From the NCBI RefSeq assembly GCF_003855255.1, contig NZ_CP034072.1, positions 4,955,208 through 5,019,207 on the forward strand: DNA of 64,000 nt, in the 5' to 3' direction. The notes under the pieces were generated by a model, which was given only the letters and a program-made list of their open reading frames with translations, did no database searches and was not told the DNA's origin. Position 1 is the stretch's first letter; each line of letters begins with the position of its first letter. Shown here one piece after another: positions 1,099 to 16,399 of this stretch. This stretch comes from Mycolicibacterium nivoides. GTDB taxonomy: Bacteria; Actinomycetota; Actinomycetes; Mycobacteriales; Mycobacteriaceae. A program made the translations under genes and the position numbers.

Positions 1099-2844
1099 CT
1101 ATTTCACAACCCGTAGATTGGGCCCAGAGGCAAGGAGTCGCAAACCCAACACACCCGGCGCGCCGGCGGGCACGGTGGGGCTCTCCGGCTGAATCGGTGC
1201 GAGCTGTTTGTAGGGCTGCCCCTGGGCTGGCCGCACGTCGTCCTGCCCCTTATTGGGCCATAGTGACGCCGCCCGTTCGGCCTGCGCGGCGATCGAAAGT
1301 GCCGGATTTACCCCGAGATTCGCAGAAATCGCCGCACCGTCCACGACGTAGAGAGTCGGGTAGTTGTACACGCGGTGATAGGGATCGATCACGCCGGTCT
1401 CGGCACTGTCACCGATCGCCGCACCACCGAGGAAGTGCGCGGTCAGCGGGATGTTGAACAGCTCGCCCCAGCTGCCGACGGCAATGCCGCCGACCTTCTG
1501 CGCCATCTGCCGCGTCGCCTCGTTGCCGACCGGAATCCATGTCGGGTTGGGCCCGCCGTGCCCCTGCTTCGAGGACATGATCCGGATGCCCCCCGGCCCG
1601 CGCTTGGTGAACGTGGTGATCGAGTTGTCCAGGTGCTGCATCACCAGGGCGATCAGGGTTCGCTCGCTCCACCGTCTCGGGATCAGCATATTGAGCAGCT
1701 CAGCCGGCCGGGCACGGCCTTGGCTCAGAAACTGCTTCCACCGCGGCGCGTCGGTGCCCCCTGGGCCGGCGCCGTCGGTCATCAGCGTCTGCAGCAGGCC
1801 CATCGCGTTGGAGCCCTTGCCGTACCGCACGGGTTCGATGTGGGTGTCCGGCGTCGGGTGAATCGACGAGGTGATGGCTACGCCATGTGTGAGATCCATG
1901 TCGGTGGGCACCGTCTTGGTCTGCGCACCGACGATCGACTCGGAGTTGGTCCGGGTCAGCACGCCCAGACGATCGGACAGCTTCGTCAGCTTGCCGGTGT
2001 CACGAACCTTGAACAACAGTCGCTGAGTGTTGTACGTACCCGCCGCGACGATGAGGTACTTGGCGGTGAAGGTGCGCTTGCCCCGCCTCACCCGGCCGTT
2101 GGTCCGATGGGTCGACACCTCCCACAGCCCGTCACACCGCTGCTGAAAGCTGGTCACCGTGGTCATCGAATGTACTTGCACCCCAGCCTTTTCCGCGAGG
2201 CCAAGGTAGTTCTTGACGAGAGTGTTCTTGGCGCCGTGCCGGCAGCCGGTCATGCACTGGCCGCATTCGATGCAGCCGGTGCGCGCCGGGCCTGCCCCGC
2301 CGAAGTAGGGGTCCGGGACGGTCTTGCCCGGCGCCTTGTCACCGTCGGGCCCGAAAAACACGCCGACCGGCGTTGCGACGAATGTATCCCCGCAGCCCAT
2401 GTCGTCGGCGACCTCTTTGACGATGCGGTCCGCATCGGTGAAGGTCGGGTTCTTCACCACGCCGAGCATTCGTTGCGCCTGTTCGTAGTGCGGCATCAGC
2501 TCGCCACGCCAGTCGGTGATGTCCTTCCACTGCGGATCGTTGAAGAACGGGTCCGGCGGAATGTATAGCGTGTTGGCGTAGTTCAGGGAACCGCCGCCAA
2601 CGCCCGCACCGGCCAGGATCATCACGTTACGCAACAGGTGGATGCGCTGGATGCCGTACATGCCGAACTTGGCCGCCCACAAGAACTTTCGCAAATCCCA
2701 GGAGTTTTTGGCGAAGTCAACGTCTAAATACCGCCGACCTGCCTCCAAAACTCCAACCCGATAACCCTTCTCGGTGAGCCGCAGGGCGCTCACGCTGCCC
2801 CCGAATCCCGAACCGATAATGAGCACGTCATAGTCAGGCGTCAT
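1099..2844 (-). CDS. choD: GMC-type flavin oxidoreductase, ChoD-like
   Basis: A 581-residue flavoprotein of the mycobacterial ChoD (Rv3409c) type, annotated as cholesterol oxidase (3-beta-hydroxysterol to 3-ketosteroid). The N-terminus carries the dinucleotide-binding motif DVLIIGSGFGG (about residues 6-16), followed by the FAD-contacting GAGVGGGSLNYAN near residue 78. A cysteine-rich segment near residue 200 (CIECGQCMTGC) is typical of this subfamily. The C-terminal VVDGAAISANLGVNP with LSIAAQAERAA is the GMC flavin/substrate cap end. I chose ATG 2844 because the family begins MxPDYDVLIIG; a longer frame to 2913 adds unrelated sequence. The start overlaps the stop of the upstream DoxX gene, so translation was probably coupled. 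Whether the substrate is cholesterol is not settled for this family; another 3-hydroxysteroid is possible. Confidence 0.85.
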   Translation of the reverse strand: MTPDYDVLIIGSGFGGSVSALRLTEKGYRVGVLEAGRRYLDVDFAKNSWDLRKFLWAAKFGMYGIQRIHLLRNVMILAGAGVGGGSLNYANTLYIPPDPFFNDPQWKDITDWRGELMPHYEQAQRMLGVVKNPTFTDADRIVKEVADDMGCGDTFVATPVGVFFGPDGDKAPGKTVPDPYFGGAGPARTGCIECGQCMTGCRHGAKNTLVKNYLGLAEKAGVQVHSMTTVTSFQQRCDGLWEVSTHRTNGRVRRGKRTFTAKYLIVAAGTYNTQRLLFKVRDTGKLTKLSDRLGVLTRTNSESIVGAQTKTVPTDMDLTHGVAITSSIHPTPDTHIEPVRYGKGSNAMGLLQTLMTDGAGPGGTDAPRWKQFLSQGRARPAELLNMLIPRRWSERTLIALVMQHLDNSITTFTKRGPGGIRIMSSKQGHGGPNPTWIPVGNEATRQMAQKVGGIAVGSWGELFNIPLTAHFLGGAAIGDSAETGVIDPYHRVYNYPTLYVVDGAAISANLGVNPALSIAAQAERAASLWPNKGQDDVRPAQGQPYKQLAPIQPESPTVPAGAPGVLGLRLLASGPNLRVVK

Positions 2845-3290
2845 GGCAGCCCCCGCAACGATTGGTCGACCGTCGTGCCGTCGGAATGGCGGTTGACCAG
2901 AGTGCCCAGGCACTGAGGGCGGGCTGAAACAGCAGGCGGATGAACCGACGACGGTCGGTGTTGAGGACGAATGCGTTCCGCTTGTTGCGGTACTGGGCGA
3001 TGTTTCCCGGGAACACTGCGATGAAGAACGCGGCGATGATCCGTCCGATCTTCCACCCGATCGTGGGTGAGGACCGCCAGGCCCGCACCGAGCATGAGCT
3101 CCACCCCGCCGGAGGCCATCACGACGGCGTCAGGATCCAGGGGTATCGATCTGGGCACTTGCGCCTGGAAGTCCTCGCGGGCCCAGAAGAGGTGGCCCAG
3201 TCCGGCAAGGACGAGCACGCCTGACAGGGCCAGACGGGCGACTGTGCGCATCGCCGTGGTGGGGGGTTCGGTCACTTCATCGGATGTCAT
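2834..3290 (-). pseudogene. DoxX-family membrane protein, frameshifted
   Basis: The first frame (start ATG 3290) encodes a DoxX-like protein with a first membrane segment (RLALSGVLVLAGLGHLFW) and a second (VELMLGAGLAVL). It then runs into frame-shifted sequence after about 76 residues. The expected remainder, including the family-typical FFIAVFPGNIAQYRN, continues in the neighbouring frame from about 3070 to the stop at 2834. A single extra base between about 3055 and 3075 accounts for the break. It lies between gabD2 (35 bp upstream) and choD (overlapping), on the same strand, so it belongs to that operon. DoxX proteins are small membrane proteins linked to redox or thiol homeostasis. The defect may be real or a sequencing error. 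Confidence 0.7.
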
Positions 3291-3324: not shown

Positions 3325-4878
3325 TCAGCGGCCTGGAATCCATTGCAGGGCTTTGACGACGGGCGGCAGGATCTTCGCCCACAGCTTCGGCGGCACGCCG
3401 CGCGGGCCGCCGAGGTTCAGGATGCGGGTGGTGGCGATGGTCTGCGGTTCGGTGTATTTGGTCAGGCCCTCAGGGCCGTGGCGACGCCCGACCCCCGAAA
3501 TTCCCATGCCGCCCATCGGCGCGCCGGTGCTTCCCCAAGCGGGGCCGTAGCCTTCGTCGACGTTGACGGTGCCGGCGCGGATCCGGGCAGCGATCGCCTC
3601 ACCCTGGCTCTTGGTGGCCGCCCACACGCTGGCGTTCAACCCATACTCGGTGTCGTTGGCCTGCTCGACAGCCTCGTCGACGCCTGCGACCGGGTAAATC
3701 GAGACGAGCGGTCCGAAGGTCTCGTCACGGTAGCACTCGGCTTCGGCGGGAACGCCGGTGAGCACGGTTGGCTCGTAGAACAATGGGCCGAGATCGGGGC
3801 GGGCCTTGCCGCCGGCAATCACGGTGGCCCCCTTGGCGACAGCGTCATCGACGTGTCTGGCCACGGCTTTGAGCTGCTCCTCGGAAATGAGGCTACCCAT
3901 CTCGATGCCGAACTCGTAGCCCGCACCCAGCGTCATGTTGGTGACCCGTTCCCCGAAGATTCGGGTGAACTCAGGTGCGATCGACTGCTCGACGTAGATG
4001 CGTTCGATGGAGACGCACAGCTGGCCAGAGTTCGAGTAGCAGCCGCGCACGGCGGCGTCGGCCACCTCCTGCAGATCGGCCCCGGCCATCACGATCATCG
4101 GGTTCTTGCCACCCAGCTCGGCCGAGAAGCCGATGAGACGGGCGCCGGCCTGCTCGGCGAGCAGCCGACCCGTGGCCGTGGACCCGGTGAACATCACAAA
4201 GTCGCTGCTCTCCACCAGGGCGGCGCCCACCACAGAACCAGGCCCGGGGACCACGGCGAACAGATCCCGAGCGAGGCCGGCCTGGTAGAGCAGCTCGACG
4301 CACGCCAAAGCGCAATACGGGGTCTGGCTATCGGGTTTGAGCACCACAGCGTTGCCGGCAAGTAGGGCCGCGATAGCGTCCGACACCGCCAGCGTCATCG
4401 GGTAGTTCCACGGCGAGATCACCCCAACGACGCCCTTGGGCTGATACCGCACCACCGTCTTGGTCAGGCCCGGCAGCATCCCGGCTACGCGCTGCGGCCG
4501 CAACAGCTTTGGCGCGACGCGCGCGTAGTACCGAGCGGTCATGGCGATGTCGAGGATCTCTTCCTGGGCGGCGGCGCGTGATTTGCCGGTCTCGGCCTGC
4601 GCCATGTCCATCAGGGAGTCGCGGTTCTGCAGCACCAGGTCGTGGTAGCGGTTGAATATGGCAGACCGTTCCACAACCGGCCGGTCGCCCCAGCCGTTCT
4701 GGGCAGTCCGGGCGCGGGTGATCGCGTCCTTGGCGTCCTGTGCGGTGCCGACCGGCACGGTGGCCAATTGCTTGCCGGTGAACGCTTCAAGCACTGGGCG
4801 TGTCGGACGAGTGGCCGCGTCGGGGACGGCGACCAAGTCGGCGAGCCGCTTGAACGTTGCGGCGGACGGAGCAGGCAT
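3325..4878 (-). CDS. gabD2: Succinate-semialdehyde dehydrogenase, GabD2 type
   Basis: A 517-residue NAD(P)-dependent aldehyde dehydrogenase, nearly the same length as M. tuberculosis GabD2 (Rv1731, 518 aa) and starting with the same MPAPSA. It oxidises succinate semialdehyde to succinate, linking GABA or 2-oxoglutarate breakdown to the TCA cycle. The catalytic Glu lies in ELGGKNP (Glu254) and the nucleophilic Cys in SGQLCVS (Cys288). The cofactor region ISPWNYP is near residue 154. A strong AGGGGAAC precedes the ATG at 4878. It is the first gene of the gabD2-doxX-choD run. Pairing with ChoD may reflect sterol side-product metabolism, but that is inference. Confidence 0.9.
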   Translation of the reverse strand: MPAPSAATFKRLADLVAVPDAATRPTRPVLEAFTGKQLATVPVGTAQDAKDAITRARTAQNGWGDRPVVERSAIFNRYHDLVLQNRDSLMDMAQAETGKSRAAAQEEILDIAMTARYYARVAPKLLRPQRVAGMLPGLTKTVVRYQPKGVVGVISPWNYPMTLAVSDAIAALLAGNAVVLKPDSQTPYCALACVELLYQAGLARDLFAVVPGPGSVVGAALVESSDFVMFTGSTATGRLLAEQAGARLIGFSAELGGKNPMIVMAGADLQEVADAAVRGCYSNSGQLCVSIERIYVEQSIAPEFTRIFGERVTNMTLGAGYEFGIEMGSLISEEQLKAVARHVDDAVAKGATVIAGGKARPDLGPLFYEPTVLTGVPAEAECYRDETFGPLVSIYPVAGVDEAVEQANDTEYGLNASVWAATKSQGEAIAARIRAGTVNVDEGYGPAWGSTGAPMGGMGISGVGRRHGPEGLTKYTEPQTIATTRILNLGGPRGVPPKLWAKILPPVVKALQWIPGR

Positions 4879-5040: not shown

Positions 5041-6786
5041 TCAACCATGGTGGGGTTTTGGGTTCATTTCGTAGGCGCCGGACAAGGCGGCGACACGCTG
5101 CCAGATACGGTCGAACCGCTCCCCTTCGACTACAGGCCTGCCGATCGCTGCCAGGGTGATCTGTTGTTGGGCCTCGGTGGTGGAGGGTTTGTCGTGCAAT
5201 CCGACTGCCGCAGCGTTGAAGTCGCGGACCAGTATGTCGAAGATCTGGTCGACCAGGTCGATGTCGAGACCGACGATCTCTGCTTGTTCCAGGATCAGCT
5301 GCCCGTACACGACCAGGGTGAACATTTCGGTAAGGGCGAGCCCGAAGTCAAGATCACCCTGCTGAGCGGCATCCGGGGGGGCCTCGCTCAATAGGGTGAC
5401 CAGATGCTCGGCCTGGGCGGTGAAGCGGGCCACGTTGGCGATGGCCGCCGAGGCGGCGTACACAGCGCGCCAGTCGTGGAACCGGACCTTCGCCAGCCCC
5501 CGCGCGGGGCCCTGGCGAAACAGGAATTCGTCGTCTGCGGCATCGAGCCGGGTGGGCACCGGCGGGTAGTGCTGAGGGTCGAACAGGTAGGCGGGCATGA
5601 ACTTAGCGATCAGCGCCAGGTTCACCGCGACGGTACCCTCGAGTTTGGGCAGCCCGTCGATGTCCCTCTTTGCGAGCAGCAGATACTGGTCGTCCTCGAA
5701 ACCCTTGGCGGCCACGACATCCGACAACAGCCCGACCACCTTCTGCGCCTCGGTCGTCACCTTCATCTTGGTGATTGGGTTGAACAACAGATACCGGCGG
5801 TCGTCGGGGTTCGCGCAGCGGAAGTAGTCCACCGCGCGGTCGGCGAACAGCCGCATCCCGATGAGCCGGGCGTACGCATCGACAAATTCGCGGCGCACGT
5901 GCGGGAAATCGGTGACCGGGTGCCCGTACAGAATCCGGTTGTGCGCGTGGGTGATCGTCTCGTACAGGGCGTGAGTCGCCGCGCCGATCCCGCCGAAGCA
6001 CAGGTTGAACTTGCCAACGTTGACCGTGTTCAACGCCGCGTCAAACGCGTCCTGGCCGGTGTGCAGGATGTGCTGCGCGGCGACTGGATAATCCTGCAGG
6101 GTGATCTCGGCGACGAATATCTGCGACGGGACGATGTTCTTGACCACGTGGAACTTCGGGTGCCCGGAGTCAGCGTAGAAGAACACGTACTGATCGGGAC
6201 CCTCGATGCCGGCGAGGCGCCCGAACACCGACACGGTGCTGGCGCAGTTGCCGTTGCCGATGTAGTACTTCGACCCGTTCGCGCGGAACCCCCCGGCGCC
6301 GTCGGAGGTCAAGACCATGTCGGTGGAGTAGATGTCGGCGCCGTGTTCCTTCTCCGAGAGACCGAACGCTGCGACTCCGCCATCGGCAAGGGCGCGCGCT
6401 GCCCGGGCACGGGCCGCGTCATTGCCGCTCTGCCACACCGGGCCCAACCCAAGCACGGTGACCTGCCACGGATACCAATAGTTGAACCCGTAGAAGCCCA
6501 GGATCTCGGAGAGCGCCGCCACCCGCGCGGTATCCCATCGCTTGTCTGGATCGCCCGCGCCGTCGCGCGCAGGGGTCAGAAACGTCGCGAACAAGCCCTC
6601 CTTCGCGACGAACTCCAGAAAATCGGCGTGAAACACCTTGCCGTGATAGTCCTGGATCAGCCGCTGCTTGCCGCGGTGTTCGAACCAGTCGATCGTCGCG
6701 CGCAGCAGCCGCCGCGTCTGCGGATCGAAATGCTCCGGGTCATACTTCACCGGATGGAGCAACAACCCATCGGATGCGTGCATCAT
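5041..6786 (-). CDS. Acyl-CoA dehydrogenase family protein
   Basis: A flavoprotein of about 581 residues from the large acyl-CoA dehydrogenase superfamily, longer than the usual 380-400 residues and closer to the FadE-type enzymes with an extra C-terminal helical region. GLSEKEHGADIYSTDM corresponds to the flavin-contacting loop, and NGSKYYIGNGNCA is the conserved middle beta-domain signature. The C-terminal helical bundle follows (VNVGKFNLCFGGIGAATHALY). Start ATG 6786 is preceded by GAGGACA; a longer frame to 6840 has no supporting site. A putative promoter with TTGACC and TAGGTT lies at 6957-6983 inside a 51-bp element shared with the desaturase gene at 8594. The adjacent PucR-type regulator may control it. 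The acyl substrate is unknown. Confidence 0.85.
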   Translation of the reverse strand: MMHASDGLLLHPVKYDPEHFDPQTRRLLRATIDWFEHRGKQRLIQDYHGKVFHADFLEFVAKEGLFATFLTPARDGAGDPDKRWDTARVAALSEILGFYGFNYWYPWQVTVLGLGPVWQSGNDAARARAARALADGGVAAFGLSEKEHGADIYSTDMVLTSDGAGGFRANGSKYYIGNGNCASTVSVFGRLAGIEGPDQYVFFYADSGHPKFHVVKNIVPSQIFVAEITLQDYPVAAQHILHTGQDAFDAALNTVNVGKFNLCFGGIGAATHALYETITHAHNRILYGHPVTDFPHVRREFVDAYARLIGMRLFADRAVDYFRCANPDDRRYLLFNPITKMKVTTEAQKVVGLLSDVVAAKGFEDDQYLLLAKRDIDGLPKLEGTVAVNLALIAKFMPAYLFDPQHYPPVPTRLDAADDEFLFRQGPARGLAKVRFHDWRAVYAASAAIANVARFTAQAEHLVTLLSEAPPDAAQQGDLDFGLALTEMFTLVVYGQLILEQAEIVGLDIDLVDQIFDILVRDFNAAAVGLHDKPSTTEAQQQITLAAIGRPVVEGERFDRIWQRVAALSGAYEMNPKPHHG

Positions 6787-6956
6787 CAATGTGTCCTCTT
6801 CGGTCGAGTCCTGGACCGTGCCGACATGCCCTTGCGTCACGGTTGGTCGGGCATGGGTAGCCGGTGATCAACCGGGCCAGGGCGCGGCGCGAGTAGTCGC
6901 GAGTCGATTCGTCGGAATTTCGGTCTATCGAATGGCGTGTACGGGGATGAGACGCC

Positions 6957-7023
6957 AACCTACGAACGGCCGGTATCGGTCAACAAGGCCATCGCAGCCC
7001 ACTCCAATGTGCTGCGAGCACAT
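6957..7023 (-). promoter_or_regulatory. Putative promoter and palindromic operator, copy A
   Basis: Read on the minus strand, this holds the perfect 17-bp palindrome ATGTGCTCGCAGCACAT (7007-7023), then TTGACC (6978-6983), a 15-bp spacer and TAGGTT (6957-6962). It lies about 170 bp upstream of the acyl-CoA dehydrogenase start. The block 6976-7026 is identical, in inverted orientation, to 8467-8517 upstream of the desaturase-reductase gene. The spacing of palindrome to -35 is the same in both copies. This looks like an operator plus promoter shared by two genes; the adjacent PucR-type protein is the obvious candidate ligand. Confidence 0.55.
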
Positions 7024-7146
7024 CGGCGAACGCCTCGGCTTCGGGTCAGCGAGACGAAGACCCGCGCAACACCGAGGCCCCCAGCACGTGACAGACAAGC
7101 AGGGCCGCATGCAGCTCACCGATGTTGTTCGTTGCGGGCCGGCCCC
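6961..7146. repeat. Inverted repeat, left copy (partner 8370-8532)
   Basis: About 165-185 bp here match the reverse complement of 8370-8532. The core 6976-7026 is 51 of 51 identical. Homology then continues at lower identity into the 3' end of the PucR-type gene. The repeat therefore comprises the last codons of a PucR-type gene plus the promoter region beyond it. There are no transposase genes or terminal target duplications, so it looks like segmental duplication with inversion rather than a mobile element. Confidence 0.7.
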
Positions 7147-8296
7147 GGCGCTCCTCGGCGCGCCGTACCCGTTGCAGGACCGTGTTGCGGTGGATTCCCA
7201 AGGCGCGTGCTGCGGTCACGAAACTGCCTTGCGCATCGAGTACCGCCAGCAGGGCGGCGCGCTCGTCGCGTGCCTTCGTGTCGGCTCTTGCCAGGTCGCC
7301 GAGCTGTGCAGCGACGAAGGATCTCGCTGCATCCAGGTCGCGCGAGATGGCGTCAACCAAAGCGATATCGGCGAACGCGGTGATCGACGGCGCAGCGCGC
7401 CGCGACAGTTCGATTACCCGGCGAGTCCGAAGCGCCTCCAGATGGGAGGTGCGAAAGCCTGCAGCGCCTGGATGCGGGGAGCCCACCGCGACGTGCACGC
7501 TCTCGACATCGCCGGAAAGCTCCCTCGCCATGCCGGCCAGCGATGACCTCACGTCACCCGTAATCGCCACCCAACCCCACACCGCAAGTGGCCCATCAGC
7601 CACCACGAGTGAGTGACTGCCACCGAGCAGCCCGCCCACCTGCCGGGCAATTCCCTCAAGGTCGACGCCGCGCTCGTGGACCCAACACACGAAACCGATC
7701 TGCCGACCGGTCAGGCGGTGGCCCATCACCCGTTCGGCCCGGGCGGTGTCGACACGTTCCCCGGCCAGCAGCGCCCGCACGATATCAGCGCGCTCAGCCC
7801 TTGCCTGGTTTTGCCGTCGGTCGAGTTCCGCGACGTACTCCGCGGCTACCAGACTGGAGATCCGGTCGATATAGCGAAACCCGTACCGCTCCAAATAGGT
7901 GAACGTCCTCAGCGCGACAGCGGGATCCTCGATCCAGTCGGCGATCGAGTGCGAAAGCTTCTCGGTGAAGTACTCGTGACCCAGCCGATAGAACCGCAGC
8001 ATCACATCCACGCTGTGCCCGCGTGATGCCATGGCTCGGGCATGTTCGAGTGCGGTCACCGGCGCCTCCGCAGCGGTTACGTCGATACCGTGACGAACCA
8101 TCGACAGCACCGCTTCAAGATTCGACGAACATGATCCCAGCGTCAGGCCGCGAAGCTCCTCATCGGCTCCGATTTCCGGTATCCGCTCGACCAGATACCT
8201 GAGCATGTCGTCGGCCAGACCGGGCATATTTGCCAGCAGAGACGTGGCGACGGCCCGTCCCGCCACCGCGCCGTCGGCCGGCTCAAGCACGTCCAT
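7046..8296 (-). CDS. PucR/CdaR-family transcriptional regulator
   Basis: About 416 residues. The C-terminus carries the PucR-type helix-turn-helix: ERAALLAVLDAQGSFVTAAR followed by ALGIHRNTVLQRVRRAEE. The middle contains a GGDEF-like degenerate domain (GFVCWVHERGV to VHVAVGS) as in CdaR-like regulators. The N-terminal half is helical and resembles the RsbR/sensor-like region of actinobacterial relatives. The start is uncertain: ATG 8296 fits the family better than ATG 8404, which would read through the remnant of another gene. It lies between two targets that share an operator-like palindrome, suggesting it activates the acyl-CoA dehydrogenase and the desaturase. The last residues (GASVLRGSSSR) look shifted by one base relative to the related remnant at 8343-8455. 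Confidence 0.8.
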   Translation of the reverse strand: MDVLEPADGAVAGRAVATSLLANMPGLADDMLRYLVERIPEIGADEELRGLTLGSCSSNLEAVLSMVRHGIDVTAAEAPVTALEHARAMASRGHSVDVMLRFYRLGHEYFTEKLSHSIADWIEDPAVALRTFTYLERYGFRYIDRISSLVAAEYVAELDRRQNQARAERADIVRALLAGERVDTARAERVMGHRLTGRQIGFVCWVHERGVDLEGIARQVGGLLGGSHSLVVADGPLAVWGWVAITGDVRSSLAGMARELSGDVESVHVAVGSPHPGAAGFRTSHLEALRTRRVIELSRRAAPSITAFADIALVDAISRDLDAARSFVAAQLGDLARADTKARDERAALLAVLDAQGSFVTAARALGIHRNTVLQRVRRAEERRGRPATNNIGELHAALLVCHVLGASVLRGSSSR

Positions 8297-8342
8297 ACCT
8301 GGCACACTAGCGCCGACAAATTCGCCAAAGCCCCCGTTCACG

Positions 8343-8455
8343 ATCGATCTTCGGCAGCACATCCGCGAGCCCGGCCAGCTGCATGGGCCCTTCTGGTCTG
8401 CCACGTTGCCGGGTACCTGGGTGTTGCGCGGGTCATCGCCTCGCGCATCCGAGAC
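8343..8455 (+). pseudogene. Remnant of a second PucR-type gene 3' end
   Basis: On the plus strand, correcting one missing base near 8385 gives a peptide containing ALLVCHVAGYLGVARVIASR, which parallels the end of the neighbouring PucR-type protein (ELHAALLVCHVLGASVLR). No upstream domain is left. It lies immediately before the shared 51-bp element, so the arrangement regulator-3'-end then promoter occurs on both sides of the intact regulator. This indicates an old inverted duplication or the loss of a second regulator gene that once preceded the desaturase. Confidence 0.5.
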
Positions 8456-8466
8456 TCAGGCAATCC

Positions 8467-8536
8467 CCGATGTGCTCGCAGCACATTGGAGTGGGCTGCG
8501 ATGGCCTTGTTGACCGACGCCCGCCATTCGTATGTT
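8467..8536 (+). promoter_or_regulatory. Putative promoter and palindromic operator, copy B
   Basis: Positions 8467-8517 are identical to the reverse complement of 6976-7026. The palindrome is at 8470-8486, TTGACC at 8510-8515 and TATGTT at 8531-8536 (15-bp spacer; TTGTTG at 8507 would give 18). It lies 58 bp upstream of the desaturase-reductase start codon and in the same relative orientation as copy A has to its gene. Conservation drops outside the block, which argues for function rather than only recent duplication. Confidence 0.55.
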
Positions 8537-8593
8537 GCAGAGAATTCACATTCCCTTAGCAACCCACATTCCAAAGCGCAGAGCAGGAATCCG

Positions 8594-10603
8594 ATGTCAA
8601 TGACGACTGAGCACTCTCAACCGGCAGCAACAGCCTCCCAACGCGTCCTGCCGGATCCCGGCGAGCAGATTCCAACGCTGTCATGGCCAACCGTCGGCAT
8701 CTTCACCTGCGCGATAACGATCTTCAGCATTTCCACCTGGGCGGCGCTCACCGACGCACTGCCTGCGATCGCCACCATCGCCGCGAGCTCAGCAGCGATC
8801 TTCGTTCTTTTCACCGTCCTGCACGACGCCTCCCATTACTCGATCAGTTCACATCGCTGGGTCAACGTCGCCTTTGGTCGCGTCGCAATGCTCTTCGTGT
8901 CGCCACTGATCTCCTTCAAGTCGTTCGCGTTCATCCATATCGAGCACCACCGCAACACCAACGACGCTGAGTTCGACCCCGATCACTTCGTCAGCGCCGC
9001 ACCCTGGTGGCAGCTGCCCTTCCGCTTCCCCGCGATGGACCTGCCATACATCGGCCTCCTGGTACGCAACCTGAGCAAGCGCCCCCGCGCCGAGCTTCTC
9101 GAAACCGCGGTCTTGATGACCTTGTCCGTGGCGGTGATCGTGTGGGCGGGCTTCGCCGGACACCTATGGACGCTCGCGCTGATCTACCTGATTCCCGAGC
9201 GTATCGGCATGTTCGTACTCGCGTGGTGGTTCGACTGGCTGCCCCACCACGACCTGGAGGACACCCAGCGCGAGAACCGCTATCGCGCCACGCGCAACCG
9301 CGTCGGCTCAGAGTGGATCCTGACGCCGCTGCTGTTATCGCAGAACTACCACCTGGTCCACCACTTGCACCCCTCTATCCCCTTCCACCGGTATGTCGCG
9401 GCCTGGCGACGCAACGAGGCCGCCTACCTTGAGCGAGATTCCGCAATAAGCACCGTCTTTGGGCAGCAACTCGACGCCGCGCAGTACCACGAGTGGAAAC
9501 GCCTCAACGGCAAACTGGCTTCACTACTTCCGGTTCGCATGCCGCCCTCTTCGGCGGCGCGCCACGCCAACAGCCATCCGATCTCCGTCAAGAGCGTCGA
9601 ACCCCTAACCTGCGACAGCGTCAAAGTCACTTTTGACATTCCCGACCACCTGAGCGATCAGTTTCAGTTCCAGGCGGGTCAACATCTGACGGTTCGGCAC
9701 CGCATCGATGGGAAGGAAGTGCGACGGAACTACTCAATCTGCGCATCGGCCACATCGCGAGAATTGGCGATCGGAGTGCGGCGCGTCGCCGGTGGGATGT
9801 TCTCCACCTTCGCTGTCGAAACACTGTGTGCCGGGGACGTCCTGGAACTGATGACGCCCACAGGTAGCTTCGGCGCACCCCTCGATCCACTCGCCCGACG
9901 CGCCTACGTAGCGGTAGCGGCCGGCAGCGGCATCACCCCCATCCTGTCGATCATGCGCACCACGATGGAGATCGAAACCGAAAGCCGCTTCACACTCTTC
10001 TACGGCAACCGAACCGCAGAGTCGACCATGTTCGCCGCCGAACTCGATGAGCTCGAATCTCGATATGCCGACCGGCTACGCATAGTCCACATCCGCTCAG
10101 CCCAGACGCACTACCCCACCCATCTTCGCGGACGTATTGACCTGGCGATGGTCCAACGGCTGCTTGCCGACGATCTCATTTCAATCGACCGATGGTATCT
10201 GTGCGGCCCGAGCGACCTCGTCACGACACTGCGCGAAGGTCTCGCATCCGAAGGGGTGTCGACCGAGCGGATGAACATCGAATTGTTCCGCGGTGCAGGC
10301 AGATCCGCACCCGTCAACAACGTCCCGAACTCGAAAATCGCCATCAGGCTGTCCGGCACAGAGCACACCGTCGACCTCGCAGCAGGCGAAACTGTCCTCG
10401 AATCGGCGCTAAAGAACAACATCGACGCGCCGTACGCCTGCCTTGGCGGAGCGTGTGGCACATGCAAAGCACGGATCACAACAGGAGCCGTATCGATGGA
10501 GCAAAATTTCGCGCTCAACAGCGCCGAAGTTGAGGCCGGCTTCGTCCTAACCTGCCAGTCCCATCCGACCACACCAACCGTCACGGTCGACTACGACAGC
10601 TGA
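8594..10603 (+). CDS. Fatty acid desaturase/hydroxylase fused to PaaE-type reductase
   Basis: A 669-residue two-part enzyme. Residues 1-315 are a membrane di-iron desaturase/hydroxylase with hydrophobic segments near 33-52, 58-76, 95-112 and 170-210 and His clusters HDASH (77-81), HIEHH (115-119), LPHHD (217-219) and HLVHH (253-257). Residues 325-669 are a ferredoxin reductase of the PaaE order: flavin motif RNYSIC (378-383), NAD region AGSGITPI (443-450), LCGP (536-539), then a plant-type 2Fe-2S domain with Cys616, Cys621, Cys624 and Cys654. The electron chain NAD(P)H-flavin-FeS-di-iron is thus in one chain. In mycobacteria desaturase and reductase are usually separate (DesA3 and Rv3230c). 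Start ATG 8594 has AGCAGGAA upstream; a longer frame from 8486 overlaps the promoter. The substrate could be an acyl chain, alkane or terpenoid. Confidence 0.85.
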   Translation: MSMTTEHSQPAATASQRVLPDPGEQIPTLSWPTVGIFTCAITIFSISTWAALTDALPAIATIAASSAAIFVLFTVLHDASHYSISSHRWVNVAFGRVAMLFVSPLISFKSFAFIHIEHHRNTNDAEFDPDHFVSAAPWWQLPFRFPAMDLPYIGLLVRNLSKRPRAELLETAVLMTLSVAVIVWAGFAGHLWTLALIYLIPERIGMFVLAWWFDWLPHHDLEDTQRENRYRATRNRVGSEWILTPLLLSQNYHLVHHLHPSIPFHRYVAAWRRNEAAYLERDSAISTVFGQQLDAAQYHEWKRLNGKLASLLPVRMPPSSAARHANSHPISVKSVEPLTCDSVKVTFDIPDHLSDQFQFQAGQHLTVRHRIDGKEVRRNYSICASATSRELAIGVRRVAGGMFSTFAVETLCAGDVLELMTPTGSFGAPLDPLARRAYVAVAAGSGITPILSIMRTTMEIETESRFTLFYGNRTAESTMFAAELDELESRYADRLRIVHIRSAQTHYPTHLRGRIDLAMVQRLLADDLISIDRWYLCGPSDLVTTLREGLASEGVSTERMNIELFRGAGRSAPVNNVPNSKIAIRLSGTEHTVDLAAGETVLESALKNNIDAPYACLGGACGTCKARITTGAVSMEQNFALNSAEVEAGFVLTCQSHPTTPTVTVDYDS

Positions 10604-10838: not shown

Positions 10839-11777
10839 TCAGGGAAGCCTCACAGCGCACCCTGCATCTGAGGCTTGCCAGGTTAATGATGGGATCGTCT
10901 GGCGCACAAGCATTTTGATCGCTTGCGTCGCGGGCTCGTCGTCGCCCGCCCGCCAAGCCAATATCATCTCAGCCGGGCGACTTTCTGCCCCAGCGATCGC
11001 CCGCAGGACGACTCCATCGATTCCCATATTGGCGGCGGCCGACGGGACAAGGGCGACACCCAGCCCGGCGCGGACGAGTGCCAGGATGGTGTGCACCTGA
11101 CTGATGTGCTGTACGTAGCGGGGCGCGATTCCGTTATCCAGGAAGATGCTGACAAGTAACTCGTAAAAGTACCTGGCCTCGGCGGGTGAGTACATGATGA
11201 ATTCCTCGCCATCCAAGTCCTTGACGTGCGGGTCGATCCGATCGTCGGCCAGACGATGCCGACTGGGCGCGGCTAGCACGAGTGGTTCGCGTTGCAGCAG
11301 GCTGGCTTCGACCCCGGCGGAGGGCATGGGTGGTCGAATCAGCACCAGGTCCAGTTCACCGGCGTGCAGTTCTTCCAGCTGGACGCTTGAAACACGTTCG
11401 CGCAGAACGAGATCGATGTCGGGCATCTGCTCTCGGGTCGCATTCACTATCGGGTCGAGCACTGAGTGTGCGGATGAACCGGTGAATCCGAGTGCCACCG
11501 TCCCGGCTTGCCCGGAAGGGATGCGGCGTACCGACAACGCCGCTTGCTCCGACATGCCGAGTATCCGCCGTGCGTCGGCGAGGAAAGCCCGCCCGGCCGG
11601 CGTGAGTTGGACCCCTCTACCGATGCGATCGAACAGCGCTACCCCGAGGTCGCGCTCCAGCTGCTGGATGCGCCGCGACAACGGCGGTTGTGTGATCGCC
11701 AGCCGGTCTGCCGCCTGTCCGTAGTGCAGGGTCTCGGCCACGACGACGAAGCTCTTCAACTGGTCGAGGGTGAACAT
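10839..11777 (-). CDS. LysR-family transcriptional regulator
   Basis: A 312-residue LysR protein: N-terminal winged helix (residues 1-60, with the recognition helix in AADRLAITQPPLSRRIQQLE) followed by a LysR substrate-binding domain. ATG 11777 is chosen because FTLDQLKSFVVVAETLHYG is the usual beginning of the family and GGAG precedes it; a frame back to 11822 adds unrelated residues. It diverges from the operon starting at 11889, the classic LysR position, so it probably activates the dehydratase/ABC operon in response to the substrate or an intermediate. The convergent 3' side holds 235 bp without a gene before the desaturase-reductase stop. Confidence 0.88.
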   Translation of the reverse strand: MFTLDQLKSFVVVAETLHYGQAADRLAITQPPLSRRIQQLERDLGVALFDRIGRGVQLTPAGRAFLADARRILGMSEQAALSVRRIPSGQAGTVALGFTGSSAHSVLDPIVNATREQMPDIDLVLRERVSSVQLEELHAGELDLVLIRPPMPSAGVEASLLQREPLVLAAPSRHRLADDRIDPHVKDLDGEEFIMYSPAEARYFYELLVSIFLDNGIAPRYVQHISQVHTILALVRAGLGVALVPSAAANMGIDGVVLRAIAGAESRPAEMILAWRAGDDEPATQAIKMLVRQTIPSLTWQASDAGCAVRLP

Positions 11778-11824
11778 CGATTCAATCTCCGCATCAGTTG
11801 ATGCCAAATAGGTGTTGGACACGC

Positions 11825-11837
11825 ATCGCTCGGCGAT
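11825..11837. promoter_or_regulatory. Small palindrome in the lysR/kdgD divergent region
   Basis: ATCGC-TCG-GCGAT is a perfect 13-bp inverted repeat midway between the LysR gene and the operon it faces. It is a candidate LysR operator by position. It does not fit the T-N11-A consensus exactly, so this is weak. Confidence 0.25.
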
Positions 11838-11888
11838 CGTACCGTGACCGGGATCGCAGATCGCTGCAACTGTGACCTAGGAGGTCTC

Positions 11889-12857
11889 TTGCCCACCTTC
11901 ACACCCCATGAGCTGGCCCAACACCTCGGTTCCGGACTTCTGTCCTTCCCGGTAACCCACTTCACCGCTGATCTGGCGGTTGACGAGGACGCCTACCGCG
12001 CGAACATTGCTCGGCTGGCCGAGCACGATGTCGCCGGCCTGTTCGCCGCCGGTGGCACAGGCGAGTTCTTCTCGCTGACTCCACAGGAGATCGACCTGTT
12101 GGTCCGCGCGGCCGTGTCCAGCGCGCCGACAACCACCCCGGTCCTGGCGCCGGCCGGCTTGGGAACCCGGCAAGCCGTCGCGATGGCCCGCGCCGCCGAG
12201 GACGCCGGGGCCGACGGCGTATTGCTCTTTCCGCCCTATCTGACCGAGGCGTCACCCTCAGGGCTGGGTGAGTATGTACGGACGATATGCGAGAGCACCT
12301 TATTGGGCGTCGTGGTGTACAACCGCGCGAACGCGATCTATCCCGCCCCCGTAATGGCTCAGCTCGCCGAGTCCTGCCCGAATCTGATCGGCTTCAAGGA
12401 CGGCGTCGGCGATCTGGAAGCGATGACACGCGTACACGCCACGCTCGGTGACCGCTTGGTCTACATCGGCGGACTTCCCACGGCAGAACTGTTCGCGGTG
12501 CCCTATCTCGAGCTCGGCGTGACGACCTACAGCTCCGCGATCTTCAACTTCCTACCCGAATTCGCGCTCGCCTTCTACGCTGCGGTGCGGCGGCGCGACG
12601 CGGCGACCATCCGCCGGTTCCTCGACGAGATCGTGTTGCCCTATGCAGCCATTCGTGATCGGCAACCGGGGTACGCCGTGAGTATTGTCAAGGCAGGCAT
12701 GCGCCTGACCGGACACTCCGCCGGACCCGTCCGGCCACCGCTGACCGACCTGGACCAGAACGAGTCCGCCTTGCTCGCCGAAATCATCAACCGCGCAGGC
12801 GCTCTCACCGACGATTTGGACCCAGGCCTGACCCGCGTGGCCGGTGCAACGCTATGA
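11889..12857 (+). CDS. kdgD: 5-dehydro-4-deoxyglucarate dehydratase-like enzyme
   Basis: About 322 residues of the dihydrodipicolinate synthase/N-acetylneuraminate lyase TIM-barrel family. [13 protein letters not shown] and the Schiff-base lysine in GFKDGVGD, with YNR before it, match KdgD, which converts 5-dehydro-4-deoxy-D-glucarate to 2,5-dioxopentanoate plus CO2 and water. I chose TTG 11889 because an almost perfect AGGAGG lies about five bases before it and the protein then begins with the family-typical helix; ATG 11844 would read through the promoter. It overlaps the next gene by ATGA. A related activity, 4-hydroxy-pyrroline-2-carboxylate deaminase, belongs to the same fold and yields the same product, so the upstream substrate is not certain. 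Confidence 0.75.
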
Positions 12858-14497
12858 CCGAGTGCATTCACGATGACCGCCCGCGCTCTTCGGCGGCCAC
12901 CCCTTCGGGGCGCATGCTCATCGCCGGCACACCGACGGTCGGCGACGGTCCCACGATGTACTCGAGGAATCCCAGCACCGGGACAAACCTCGAACCGGGC
13001 TATCCGGCCGCGTCAGCCGGACTCGTCGAGAGCGCCTGTCGACATGCGTCACAAGCCGCGGTGCCGTACCGGAATGTCGCGCCGAGTGAACGCGCCACGT
13101 TTCTCGACCGTATCGCCGACGAACTCGAACAGCGCCGGGAGAAGTTGGTCACCCGAGCTCGTTCTGAGACTGCGCTCGGCGTGCAACGCCTGCAAGGAGA
13201 GGCGGGCCGGACCGTTGGTCAGCTTCGACTTTTCGCAGCTGAACTGCGCGCGGGCTACTGGACGCAAGTACGGATCGACCCGGCGCAACCGGATCGGGCA
13301 CCGCAGCCCCGGCCAGATCTCCGCCAGAGACGGATCGGAGTCGGCCCTGTTGCGGTGTTCGGCGCCAGCAACTTTCCCTTGGCCTTCTCCACGGCCGGCG
13401 GCGATACGGCCTCGGCACTGGCCGCTGGATGTCCTGTCGTGGTCAAGGCGCACCCGGCGCATCTGGGCACCGCGGAGATCGCGGCCGAAGCGATTGCCGT
13501 CGCCGCCCGTGATACGGGAATGCCGCCCGGTGTGTTTTCCCAGATCGTGGGCGAGGGCAACGAAACCGGAGCACTGCTCGTCAGGGACCCGCGGATTCGG
13601 GCCGTGGGGTTCACCGGCTCTCGCCGCGGCGGACTGGCACTGTTGGCACTGGCACAGCAACGACCGATACCGATTCCGGTCTATGCCGAAATGAGCAGCG
13701 TCAACCCGGTGATACTGCTGCCCGCAGCACTCGCCGCACGGGGATCTGCCCTTGGCGAGCAGTTCGCTGCCTCCCTAACTCTCGGAGCCGGTCAATTCTG
13801 TACCAACCCGGGGCTGATCCTGGCGATCGACGGACCGGGACTCAGCCATTTCATCGACTCCGCCGCGACCGCGGTCACCGAAGATCCCGGGGCCACGATG
13901 CTCACCACCGCGATCGCGAAGGCGTACCAGACTGGCTCAGGCCGAACCGGAGGCCTCGCCGAGGTCGAGGTGCTCGCCCGCGGTAGCCGCCCAGATACCG
14001 CGGCCGGTGCCGCGGCCCAGCTACTGCGTACCGACGCCGGCGCGTTTCTCGGCAATCCGCTCCTGCACAAGGAAGTGTTCGGCGCCGCCTCGACCATCGT
14101 CGTCTGCGACGACCTGGTCGAACTGGTCGACGTGCTGGCGGCGATTGAAGGTCAGCTAACGGCAACCGTGCACGCCGACGCGGACGACCAGGCGGCCGCT
14201 CGGGCACTGATGCCGATCCTCGAGGACCTTGCGGGCCGGATCATCTTCAACGGCTGGCCGACAGGGGTGGAAGTGGGGCACGCCATGGTTCACGGGGGCC
14301 CGTACCCAGCCACCACGGACAGTCGTTCGACATCGGTCGGCACCGCCGCGATCGAACGGTTCCTCCGCCCAGTCGCCTATCAGGATGTGCCCTCAGCGCT
14401 GCTTCCCACCGAACTCAGCGCACCCGAATCAGCCGATGTGCCGTGGCGACTCGATGGCCATATGCAACTCCTTGCCCACTCTCGTGAGGACCGATAA
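12854..14497 (+). CDS. 2,5-dioxovalerate (2-oxoglutarate semialdehyde) dehydrogenase
   Basis: A 547-residue aldehyde dehydrogenase of the KGSADH type that oxidises 2-oxoglutarate semialdehyde to 2-oxoglutarate. It has the subgroup signature [20 protein letters not shown], the catalytic Glu in [10 protein letters not shown] and the nucleophilic Cys in [11 protein letters not shown]. The first 30 or so residues are an extra, poorly conserved tail. It is coupled to the upstream dehydratase by an ATGA overlap, so the pair would turn an aldarate intermediate into a TCA-cycle acid. Only 3 bp separate it from the permease gene. Confidence 0.85.
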
Positions 14498-14500
14498 CCG

Positions 14501-15346
14501 ATGGTCACATCGAATCCCGATACCGCGGCCGGTGCACCGGTGGCGACGATGACGAGCCCCGCCGTCCGAACCCCGCGTGCCATGATCCACCGCGACACAC
14601 TCATCACCGCTGCGAAAGCGGTTGCCGGCATGGTCGGGCTATTGACCCTGTGGCAACTGGCCGTCCTCGTCGCCAAGCCACCCGAGTTCATCCTGGTCGG
14701 CCCGATCGACGCATTCGCCGAATTGGCGAAACGCCCTGAGTACTTCGCCAACAACGCCTACATCACGCTTCAGGAAGCCCTCGCCGGATTCGTTCTCGGC
14801 ACCGCTCTCGGCGTCGCCTGCGGGGCCTTGCTGCACTACTCACCGACATTGCGGACCTTCCTGTATCCGGCATTGGTCGCAATCGACACGATTCCCAAAG
14901 TTGCTCTCGCACCACTGTTCATCGTGTGGTTCGGCTTCGGATTCGAGTCAAAGGCCTTCGTCGCCATGGCCATCGCATTCTTTCCACTGGTGATCAACAC
15001 CTACGACGGGCTGGCCTCGGTACCGCACGAATTGAAAGAACTGGCCCGGATCAACCGCGCGTCGAGTTTTCAGCGCATGACAAAGATCGAGTTCATCTAC
15101 GCGCTCCCCTCAGTTTTCTCTGGCGCGAAGATATCGATCTCACTGGCGGTCGGCGGTGCGGTGGTCGGTGAATTCATCGCCGGCTCAAAGGGTCTCGGGT
15201 ATGTGATCATGCTGGCCAACAGCCAGGTGGATCTGGCGTCGATGTTCGCGGCGTTCATGGTGCTGGCATCGATTGCCCTCATTCTCTTCTTCGTCGTCGA
15301 CCTGGCCGGCCGGAAACTCATGCCGTGGAAAACCCATGCCAAGTAG
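14501..15346 (+). CDS. ABC transporter permease, SsuC/TauC type
   Basis: A 281-residue inner-membrane permease with about six membrane helices. The cytoplasmic coupling loop (ELKELARINRASSFQRMTKI, around residue 175-195) matches the binding-protein-dependent transport permease family that serves sulfonates, taurine, pyrimidines and thiamine precursors. The N-terminal 30 residues are a polar extension. It is followed by its lipoprotein binding protein and its ATPase, so the importer is complete (permease, solute-binding protein, ATPase in that order). The substrate is not evident; operon partners suggest a compound degraded to 2-oxoglutarate. Confidence 0.88.
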   Translation: MVTSNPDTAAGAPVATMTSPAVRTPRAMIHRDTLITAAKAVAGMVGLLTLWQLAVLVAKPPEFILVGPIDAFAELAKRPEYFANNAYITLQEALAGFVLGTALGVACGALLHYSPTLRTFLYPALVAIDTIPKVALAPLFIVWFGFGFESKAFVAMAIAFFPLVINTYDGLASVPHELKELARINRASSFQRMTKIEFIYALPSVFSGAKISISLAVGGAVVGEFIAGSKGLGYVIMLANSQVDLASMFAAFMVLASIALILFFVVDLAGRKLMPWKTHAK

Positions 15347-15367
15347 GAGCGAAGTGCGGAGACTGCC

Positions 15368-16399
15368 ATGAGCAAGAAAGCCCCCAAGCTCGCCGCGGTG
15401 CTGTCAGCTGTTGCAGCCGCCGCTTCCCTGCTGTCGGCCTGCGGCGCCGGTGGCTCGGAGAATTCGATGTCGTTGATGGTCGATGTTGGATATCTGCCCA
15501 AACACGCGCCGTTTTTCTCAGCGGTGCGCCGGGGCTTCTTCGCTGCCGAAGGTTTGGATGTGACTGTCATGCCCGGCTCAGGATCAGGCAACACGGTAAC
15601 CGCGGTGGAAACCGGACGAGTGGATGCCGGATGGGCGGATTTTGGTGTCACCGTGATGAATCAGGGCCGCGGCGCCAAGGTGAAGCAGGTGAACCTGCTT
15701 CAGGCAAAGTCTGCCTACGCCGTGGTCAGCATGGACGGCAATGGGATCAACACCTGGGCGGATCTCAAAGGCAAGACCGTAGCAACCGAAGGCGCCGGTG
15801 CCATGACTTCGATGTGGCCATACGCGCTGAACCAGCTTGGGCTGCAACAGCGCGATGTCAACGTCGTCCACGCGGCCAGCAGCGCCAAGTTGCCCGGCCT
15901 GCTGTCCGGTCAGTGGGATGCCACCCTTGCCTTGTCGGTTTCGGACGCGCCGGCAATCGACGCATTGGGGAAAAACCCGGTGGTCCTGCGGTGGCGAGAT
16001 CTCGGAATCGACTTGTACGGCAACGGAATCATCTTCTCCGATGAGAGCCTCAAGAACCGGCCAGATCGGGTCAAGAAGTTCAACAACGCACTTCAACGCG
16101 CGTTCCTCTGGTCGTGCCAGAACCCGGAATCCTCAGCCGAGGACTTCCATCGCGAGGTCGAGGGTTACGAGACCAAGACCGTGGTCAAGGCACTCGACGA
16201 ACAATGCTCGCTCAACTGGTCGGACAACAGCCCCAACAGTCAGTTCGGCACCATGTCCGACGCCGGAGTCCAAGAAGTGATCGATATCTGTCACAACTTT
16301 CTCGGGCTGGACAAGAACATCACCGTCACCCCCGCGCAGGTGTACAGCGACGCCTTCATCTCTCCCCTGTCCAGGGGCGAACACATCACCGCGCCCTGA
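15368..16399 (+). CDS. NMT1/SsuA-like ABC solute-binding lipoprotein
   Basis: A 343-residue exported lipoprotein: short basic N-terminus, hydrophobic stretch and lipobox LLSAC with Cys25 as the lipidated residue. The mature domain is the type-2 periplasmic binding fold of the NMT1/THI5-like group (DVGYLPKHAPFFSAVRRGFF, then FAAEGLDVTVMPGSG), which binds small aromatic, pyrimidine or sulfonate-like ligands. It lies between permease and ATPase genes of the same importer. Ligand identity cannot be read from sequence. Confidence 0.88.
   Translation: MSKKAPKLAAVLSAVAAAASLLSACGAGGSENSMSLMVDVGYLPKHAPFFSAVRRGFFAAEGLDVTVMPGSGSGNTVTAVETGRVDAGWADFGVTVMNQGRGAKVKQVNLLQAKSAYAVVSMDGNGINTWADLKGKTVATEGAGAMTSMWPYALNQLGLQQRDVNVVHAASSAKLPGLLSGQWDATLALSVSDAPAIDALGKNPVVLRWRDLGIDLYGNGIIFSDESLKNRPDRVKKFNNALQRAFLWSCQNPESSAEDFHREVEGYETKTVVKALDEQCSLNWSDNSPNSQFGTMSDAGVQEVIDICHNFLGLDKNITVTPAQVYSDAFISPLSRGEHITAP

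Follow-up and report, generated by a model that had tools for sequence, protein, structure and literature searches.

GabR of Corynebacterium glutamicum, a PucR-type activator of gabTDP, is encoded next to its target, as the regulator described here is next to its putative one. According to the available part of the report on it (PMC7652997), GabR is a large oligomer that binds strongly only where two sites are present, and its sites lie directly upstream of the -35 box. The PucR-type regulators cited in that part are all activators, with PucR of Bacillus subtilis both activating and repressing. Also cited there are PutR and AdeR of B. subtilis, PucR-family activators with inverted-repeat sites of 17 bp and 24 bp, respectively, which serve amino acid catabolism, unlike the system considered here.

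We analysed a 64,000-nucleotide stretch of the Mycolicibacterium nivoides genome (the window) in which a PucR-type regulator gene, pucR, lies between two inverted 51-bp blocks. We propose that this regulator controls the adjacent desaturase-reductase fusion through the block, which would act as an operator-promoter consisting of an inverted pair of TGTGC half-sites and a direct third half-site upstream of a TTGT../TAnnnT promoter. The ancestor would have carried pucR, this element and the desaturase gene head to tail. In the window's lineage, pucR and the element would then have been duplicated in inverted orientation, leaving the intact pucR pointing away from the desaturase gene, with a complete second copy of the element at its end, and the old pucR reduced to a 3' stub. 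The second copy faces genes for an acyl-CoA dehydrogenase, an aldehyde dehydrogenase and a GMC oxidoreductase, which would thereby probably have joined the regulon, and a later exchange between the arms would have equalised the two blocks. Taken as a whole, from operator-promoter and inverted duplication to dehydrogenase recruitment and later exchange, we consider this account fairly likely. The features concerned are collected in Table 1.

Table 1. Features of the locus, in window coordinates.
Feature	Position	Strand	Basis
GMC oxidoreductase, cholesterol-oxidase type (below NCBIfam cut-off), co-directional	1099-2913	-	domains
Aldehyde dehydrogenase (succinic-semialdehyde type), co-directional	3325-4878	-	domains
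Acyl-CoA dehydrogenase-like protein, first gene behind second operator	5041-6786	-	domains, homologues
Left arm of 131-nt inverted pair, including final pucR codons	6956-7086	-	repeat alignment
Putative -10 box TAGGTT, dehydrogenase side	6957-6962	-	sequence position
51-bp block, dehydrogenase side	6976-7026	-	identical to desaturase-side block
Putative -35 box TTGTTG, dehydrogenase side	6981-6986	-	sequence position
Third half-site, dehydrogenase side	6997-7001	-	element search of own genome
Operator palindrome, dehydrogenase side	7007-7023	-	pattern search of window
PucR-type regulator, 416 aa	7046-8296	-	Pfam domains; start codon from relatives' alignment
Putative -10 box of pucR, TAGTGT, ending 7 nt upstream of ATG	8304-8309	-	upstream alignment
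Decayed 3' end of second pucR copy, beside desaturase promoter	8377-8444	+	alignment to own pucR
Right arm of 131-nt inverted pair	8407-8537	+	repeat alignment
51-bp block, desaturase side	8467-8517	+	identical to dehydrogenase-side block
Operator palindrome RTGTGC-N5-GCACAY before desaturase	8470-8486	+	TGTGC in 30/30, GCACA in 29/30 aligned relatives
Third half-site nGnGC, same direction as first and 21 bp from it	8492-8496	+	GnGC in 30/30
Putative -35 box TTGTTG, desaturase promoter	8507-8512	+	TTG there in 25/30, one-base shift in 3
Putative -10 box TATGTT, desaturase promoter	8531-8536	+	TAnnnT with 17- or 18-bp spacer, 30/30
Desaturase-reductase fusion: FA_desaturase and PaaE-like FAD/NAD/2Fe-2S reductase	8594-10603	+	domains; start codon via relatives

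The regulator and the inverted pair

The regulator carries a PucR helix-turn-helix (PF13556, HTH_30; 39.4 bits against a cut-off of 27, residues 384-436 of the 452-aa open reading frame) and a GGDEF-like domain (PF17853, GGDEF_2; 45.9 bits against 24.5), the latter being found in about half of the PucR family according to the available part of PMC7652997. A Pfam scan (E <= 0.001) gave no match to the N-terminal PucR domain, PF07905, and hence the protein is filed as PucR-type by its helix-turn-helix and GGDEF-like domains. Comparison of its N-terminal fold points to a helical domain that is possibly globin-like. Membership of the Rv1453 family (NF050824) was rejected at 126.9 bits against an equivalog cut-off of 600. 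No solved structure related to the regulator by sequence was found, and its 36 plasmid homologue records all lie below 60% identity (34.7% for the best shown). For the desaturase fusion, none of 165 plasmid records covers 80% of the query, the 15 shown matching the reductase half, and the best 60 of 110 matches among solved structures fit only the reductase/ferredoxin part.

The TAnnnT box before the ATG of pucR (window 8296-8309) is common to near relatives, and the transcript is probably leaderless. Autoregulation through the GTGTGC half-site upstream of pucR was considered and rejected: this motif shares letters with the -10 box (TAGTGTGC) and is missing from relatives in which that box reads TAGTCT, TAGGGT or TAATCT. 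Beside the desaturase gene (window 10839-16399), a LysR-type gene points away from a row of co-directional genes of the DHDPS, aldehyde dehydrogenase, ABC-permease and NMT1-like binding-protein families, apparently a separate catabolic and uptake unit.

The two 51-bp blocks are exact reverse complements at 51 of 51 positions, as a preliminary description of the window had stated, and form the core of a longer inverted pair of 131 nt with 110 identical positions. Of the 80 arm positions flanking the block, 21 differ, and in the spacer/-10 stretch 5 of 19 do (block against flanks, Fisher 1.2e-5); a difference-free run of 51 nt, given 21 differences over 131 positions, arose in only 4 of 20,000 random draws. 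The right arm, before the desaturase gene, carries a decayed copy of the pucR tail, aligned to it with two one-base indels.

Inverted repeats that flank one gene could also be the ends of a mobile element carrying pucR. We regard this as extremely improbable: in relatives the sequences homologous to the arms make up an ordinary pucR tail and desaturase promoter, pucR fills the space between them, and the genome holds no further copy of them, a 161-bp left-arm query matching only the two arms in its 6,905,961 bases (E <= 0.001).

The element in its own genome and across relatives

The palindrome that had been called perfect, ATGTGCTCGCAGCACAT, is so over its two 7-bp arms; the 3 bp at its centre, CGC, are not self-complementary. 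The third half-site stands 21 bp, or two helical turns, from the first and repeats it. Of the promoter claimed earlier, TTGACC/TAnnnT, the TAnnnT box is present on both sides, whereas TTGACC is spaced 15 bp from this box and is shared by just 6 of 30 relatives. TTGACC was probably mis-assigned as the -35 box, and the TTGTTG that it overlaps, 18 bp from the -10 box, appears the better candidate. With a predicted start about 7 nt past the -10 box, the palindrome would be centred at about -65 and the third half-site at about -49, positions which would fit an activator binding as an oligomer. A sigma-70 and terminator scan of 6700-8700 gave no match; since the scan models TTGACA/TATAAT, the empty sigma-70 result does not speak against a TAnnnT promoter. 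A search of the window for the palindrome pattern, allowing up to 3 mismatches, found 4 strand-hits at 2 places, compared with 0.14 on average in shuffled sequence.

The genome of 6.9 Mb contains 11 TGTGC-N5-GCACA sites, against 6 in the reversed control. The full element, comprising the palindrome, the third half-site and correctly spaced promoter boxes, occurs only at the two blocks, so that in this genome the block defines exactly two putative promoters. Likewise, exact occurrences of ATGTGCTNNNAGCACAT are confined to the two block sites. Three kinds of candidate were discarded. One site in minus orientation (L149), within a long reading frame, is accompanied by the third half-site yet lacks promoter boxes; of five RTGTGCN5GCACAY places, the other three fall within long open reading frames of high GC3; and a search allowing 2 mismatches returned 17 places against 12 in the reversed control, which is noise beyond the two exact sites. 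TGTGC-N5-GCACA is absent within about 400 bp of either end of all three pucR paralogues in the same genome (31-32% identity). A second PucR-type gene of Mycobacterium sp. URHB0044, with 37% identity and a similar helix-turn-helix segment (locus L181, G742:C1:349000-361000, about 5346-7315, minus strand), is directly followed by TGTGC-N5-GCACA plus TGTGC, before a gene with an FMN reductase domain (PF03358), and the operator may serve a wider PucR subfamily. The same genome has a third pattern match, within a reading frame (L182).

Among 401 genomes of the family, the window's included, 29 carry the desaturase fusion at E <= 1e-150; the regulator is present in 18 at E <= 1e-100, and each of these 18 also carries the fusion; within the genus the regulator is present in 18 of 396 genomes. 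For comparison we used 31 distinct genomes besides the window, after 7 of 8 extra loci had been merged as duplicates. The pucR and desaturase genes stand head to tail in 27 of these and are divergent in three (G074, G325 and Mycobacterium sp. URHB0044), and in Mycolicibacterium sp. P9-22 (G554) they lie about 26 kb apart on one contig. The regulator gene thus adjoins its putative desaturase target in 30 of 31 relatives, and an inverted-repeat site upstream of the -35 box is found in 31 of 31. The element precedes the desaturase gene in all 31, including genomes with PucR identity as low as 56%; the palindrome is exact in 30, with one mismatch in nzgw95, and its exact form occurs once per 4-18 kb stretch in 29 of 30 loci.

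Thirty relatives were aligned on the palindrome; P9-22 was left out and its DNA examined separately. TGTGC occupies positions 1-5 in 30 of 30, and GCACA positions 11-15, with position 11 deviating only in nzgw95. The third half-site has G, G and C at positions 23, 25 and 26 throughout (30/30). The hexamer at 37-42 starts with TTG in 25 relatives, is shifted by one base in three (G059, G040 and G076) and reads TGGTGG in two (G060 and G061), and TAnnnT follows this hexamer by 17 or 18 bp in all 30. In P9-22 the element has stayed with the desaturase gene (L180, G554:C29:446000-462000, 6914-9012; L125) and none is found in the 14-kb stretch around pucR; with pucR some 26 kb from the element, this strain would be a natural case of regulation in trans.

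The element precedes none of 12 desaturase homologues without this pucR, examined in 11 genomes, where the best match has 2 to 5 mismatches. Across the genus, the palindrome together with the third half-site occurs in 17 of 18 regulator-bearing genomes against 27 of 378 others (Fisher 4e-17). Of these 27 we read the stretches for three. In G487 and G575 a long reading frame contains the site. G574 has three sites, of which the one read (L185 4555, minus strand) is intergenic, between an oxidase-like gene and a gene for a long PPE-like repeat protein; at the threshold applied, G574 lacks an ortholog of this pucR. The match in G487 (L184 3225, minus strand) falls within a long glycosyltransferase-like reading frame and recurs with nearly equal letters in eight further genus genomes lacking this pucR; this near-constant match in nine genomes looks like a coding coincidence.

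CRP/GlxR-type sites are TGTGA..TCACA-like, and the TGTG/CACA half-sites of the palindrome resemble those of the CRP family, so that the palindrome could be the site of such a factor and not of this PucR. We judge this very unlikely. The core is TGTGC-N5-GCACA and comes with a third half-site; the element tracks this pucR across genomes and is absent before the desaturase homologues without it; and the genome has only two full sites, as against the 191 CRP sites mapped in M. tuberculosis (PMC4117774, available part). In 31 relatives the element co-occurs with the PucR-type regulator, keeps a fixed position and has invariant half-sites. This supports the proposal of a promoter/operator tied to that regulator, and the block is very probably the regulator's operator-promoter, ancestrally serving the desaturase gene.

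Origin of the second copy and the dehydrogenase genes

In 15 close relatives (about 77-84% desaturase protein identity) with no indel in the block, it departs from the window's at 7-12 of its 51 positions. Within this group 28 of the 51 are variable, whereas the window's two copies differ at none. The comparison was first made on 17 of the 30 relatives, chosen for their nearness, giving 7-14 differences and 29 variable positions; N. exalbida and G563 were then dropped because a one-base indel inflates the ungapped count. Given that 28 of 51 positions vary among close relatives, the identity of the blocks cannot be read as a measure of selection strength. Function alone would not be expected to hold variable positions equal, and hence a recent exchange between the arms, by gene conversion or an inverting crossover, appears the better account of their identity. 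Support for a function of the element itself comes from the comparison across species.

The left arm consists of the pucR tail and the element and the right arm of the pucR stub and the element, so in the simplest history an inverted copy of pucR and the element downstream of it would have arisen first, and the old pucR would then have decayed. The idea of two independently kept operators was not borne out; the blocks are probably products of an inverted duplication that carried the pucR tail along. Alternatively, the stub and element may have been copied before the dehydrogenase gene first, with a crossover between the inverted elements then flipping pucR.

Crossovers between the identical 51-bp blocks could also flip the pucR segment of about 1.4 kb repeatedly and so act as a homologous-recombination switch. 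The crossover would lie outside the pucR stop codon and inside the shared operator/-35 region, leaving both promoters and pucR intact in either orientation, and only the gene downstream of pucR would change, affecting read-through and the local supply of regulator. Repeated flipping would explain identical blocks beside flanks that have diverged by 26%, but we think such a switch very improbable.

Mycobacterium sp. URHB0044 offers a partial parallel. Its pucR is divergent from the desaturase gene and is accompanied by a weak pucR-like stub (score 28 against its own pucR); its 14-kb locus has only the element of the desaturase gene and no second one, and a reading frame convergent with pucR. 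The 3' end of this pucR (L023 8220-8362) diverges from six aligned relatives after LLV, and beyond it (L023) the element is absent and the opposite strand has a TetR-like reading frame. Against a shared inversion, the grouping of URHB0044 with the window is rejected by an AU test on concatenated PucR and desaturase (p 0.0034), a test that was chosen after viewing single-gene trees which are poorly resolved for the window. The likeness to the window is suggestive only; since the two do not group, pucR may have flipped more than once.

On the dehydrogenase side, the element was found upstream of none of 30 homologues, which come from 29 distinct genomes out of 148 with a match, in a search of 500 bp ending about 30 codons inside the query reading frame, which indicates that the copy facing the dehydrogenase gene is new. 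Genes conserved without the block, the outcome that the preliminary description had set against its own reading, were thus not seen for the desaturase (31 of 31 genomes with this pucR keep the element) and were seen for the dehydrogenase, none of whose 30 homologues has it. The new copy nevertheless retains every invariant position of the element.

These observations bear on whether the desaturase-side element is the true operator and the dehydrogenase-side copy a passive relic of duplication with no regulatory role. The absence of the element before all 30 dehydrogenase homologues favours a relic, as do a block identity that gene conversion can explain in place of selection and the URHB0044 locus, in which pucR and the desaturase gene diverge with no second element. 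However, the left copy has kept the palindrome, the third half-site, the -35 box and a correctly spaced TAnnnT -10 box in spite of 21 differences over 80 flanking positions, and URHB0044, with its convergent reading frame past pucR, shows no such copy. We therefore consider a passive relic possible but rather unlikely.

A second arrangement of the same genes is found in Nocardia gamkensis (G326/L020), where a single strand with one element carries, in succession, pucR, the element, the desaturase gene, a different aldehyde dehydrogenase gene, the dehydrogenase gene, a truncated aldehyde dehydrogenase gene and the GMC oxidoreductase gene. The dehydrogenase is 91% identical to that of the window, and the two dehydrogenase upstream stretches match clearly only in 44 nt (about 6754-6797) around the start codon. 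For the truncated aldehyde dehydrogenase (L020 14284-14740), the match is confined to residues 1-37 and 318-433, which adjoin each other. The same functional gene set is thus brought together in two layouts.

Judged from the sequence, control of the dehydrogenase genes by the regulator, as in the account we favour, is reasonably probable. Since pucR and the dehydrogenase gene share a strand, read-through from the pucR promoter could be an alternative source of dehydrogenase expression. A small regulon comprising the desaturase and dehydrogenase groups, as had been predicted, is plausible. The basis of the suggested link between desaturation or hydroxylation and beta-oxidation is the enzyme families together with the N. 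gamkensis parallel.

Comparison with known systems

We recognised no paper on this regulator-desaturase pair or its operator in the open-licence literature. The analysis provides a precise predicted operator for an uncharacterised PucR-type subfamily of mycobacteria, nocardiae and rhodococci. Furthermore, the locus would be a natural case of regulon growth, in which a regulator and the target operator trailing it were duplicated in inverted orientation and captured a second group of genes, and it illustrates that the identity of repeated operators may stem from recombination and not from selection.

As described in the available parts of the respective papers, the known systems differ from the present one in target, domain content or site. 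GabR lacks the GGDEF-like domain and recognises two 21-bp inverted repeats, whereas here a single 17-bp inverted repeat is joined by a half-site and the target is different (PMC7652997). MabR (Rv2242) of Mycobacterium tuberculosis is also PucR-type, but its target is mycolic acid synthesis, unlike here (PMC11617747), and the window's regulator shares 14% identity with it over the aligned N-terminal domain. EtnR1 of Mycolicibacterium chubuense resembles the present regulator in having a PucR helix-turn-helix domain and in belonging to an oxygenase gene cluster of a mycobacterium; that cluster encodes a soluble alkene monooxygenase, whereas the enzyme here is a membrane desaturase fusion (PMC8784404).
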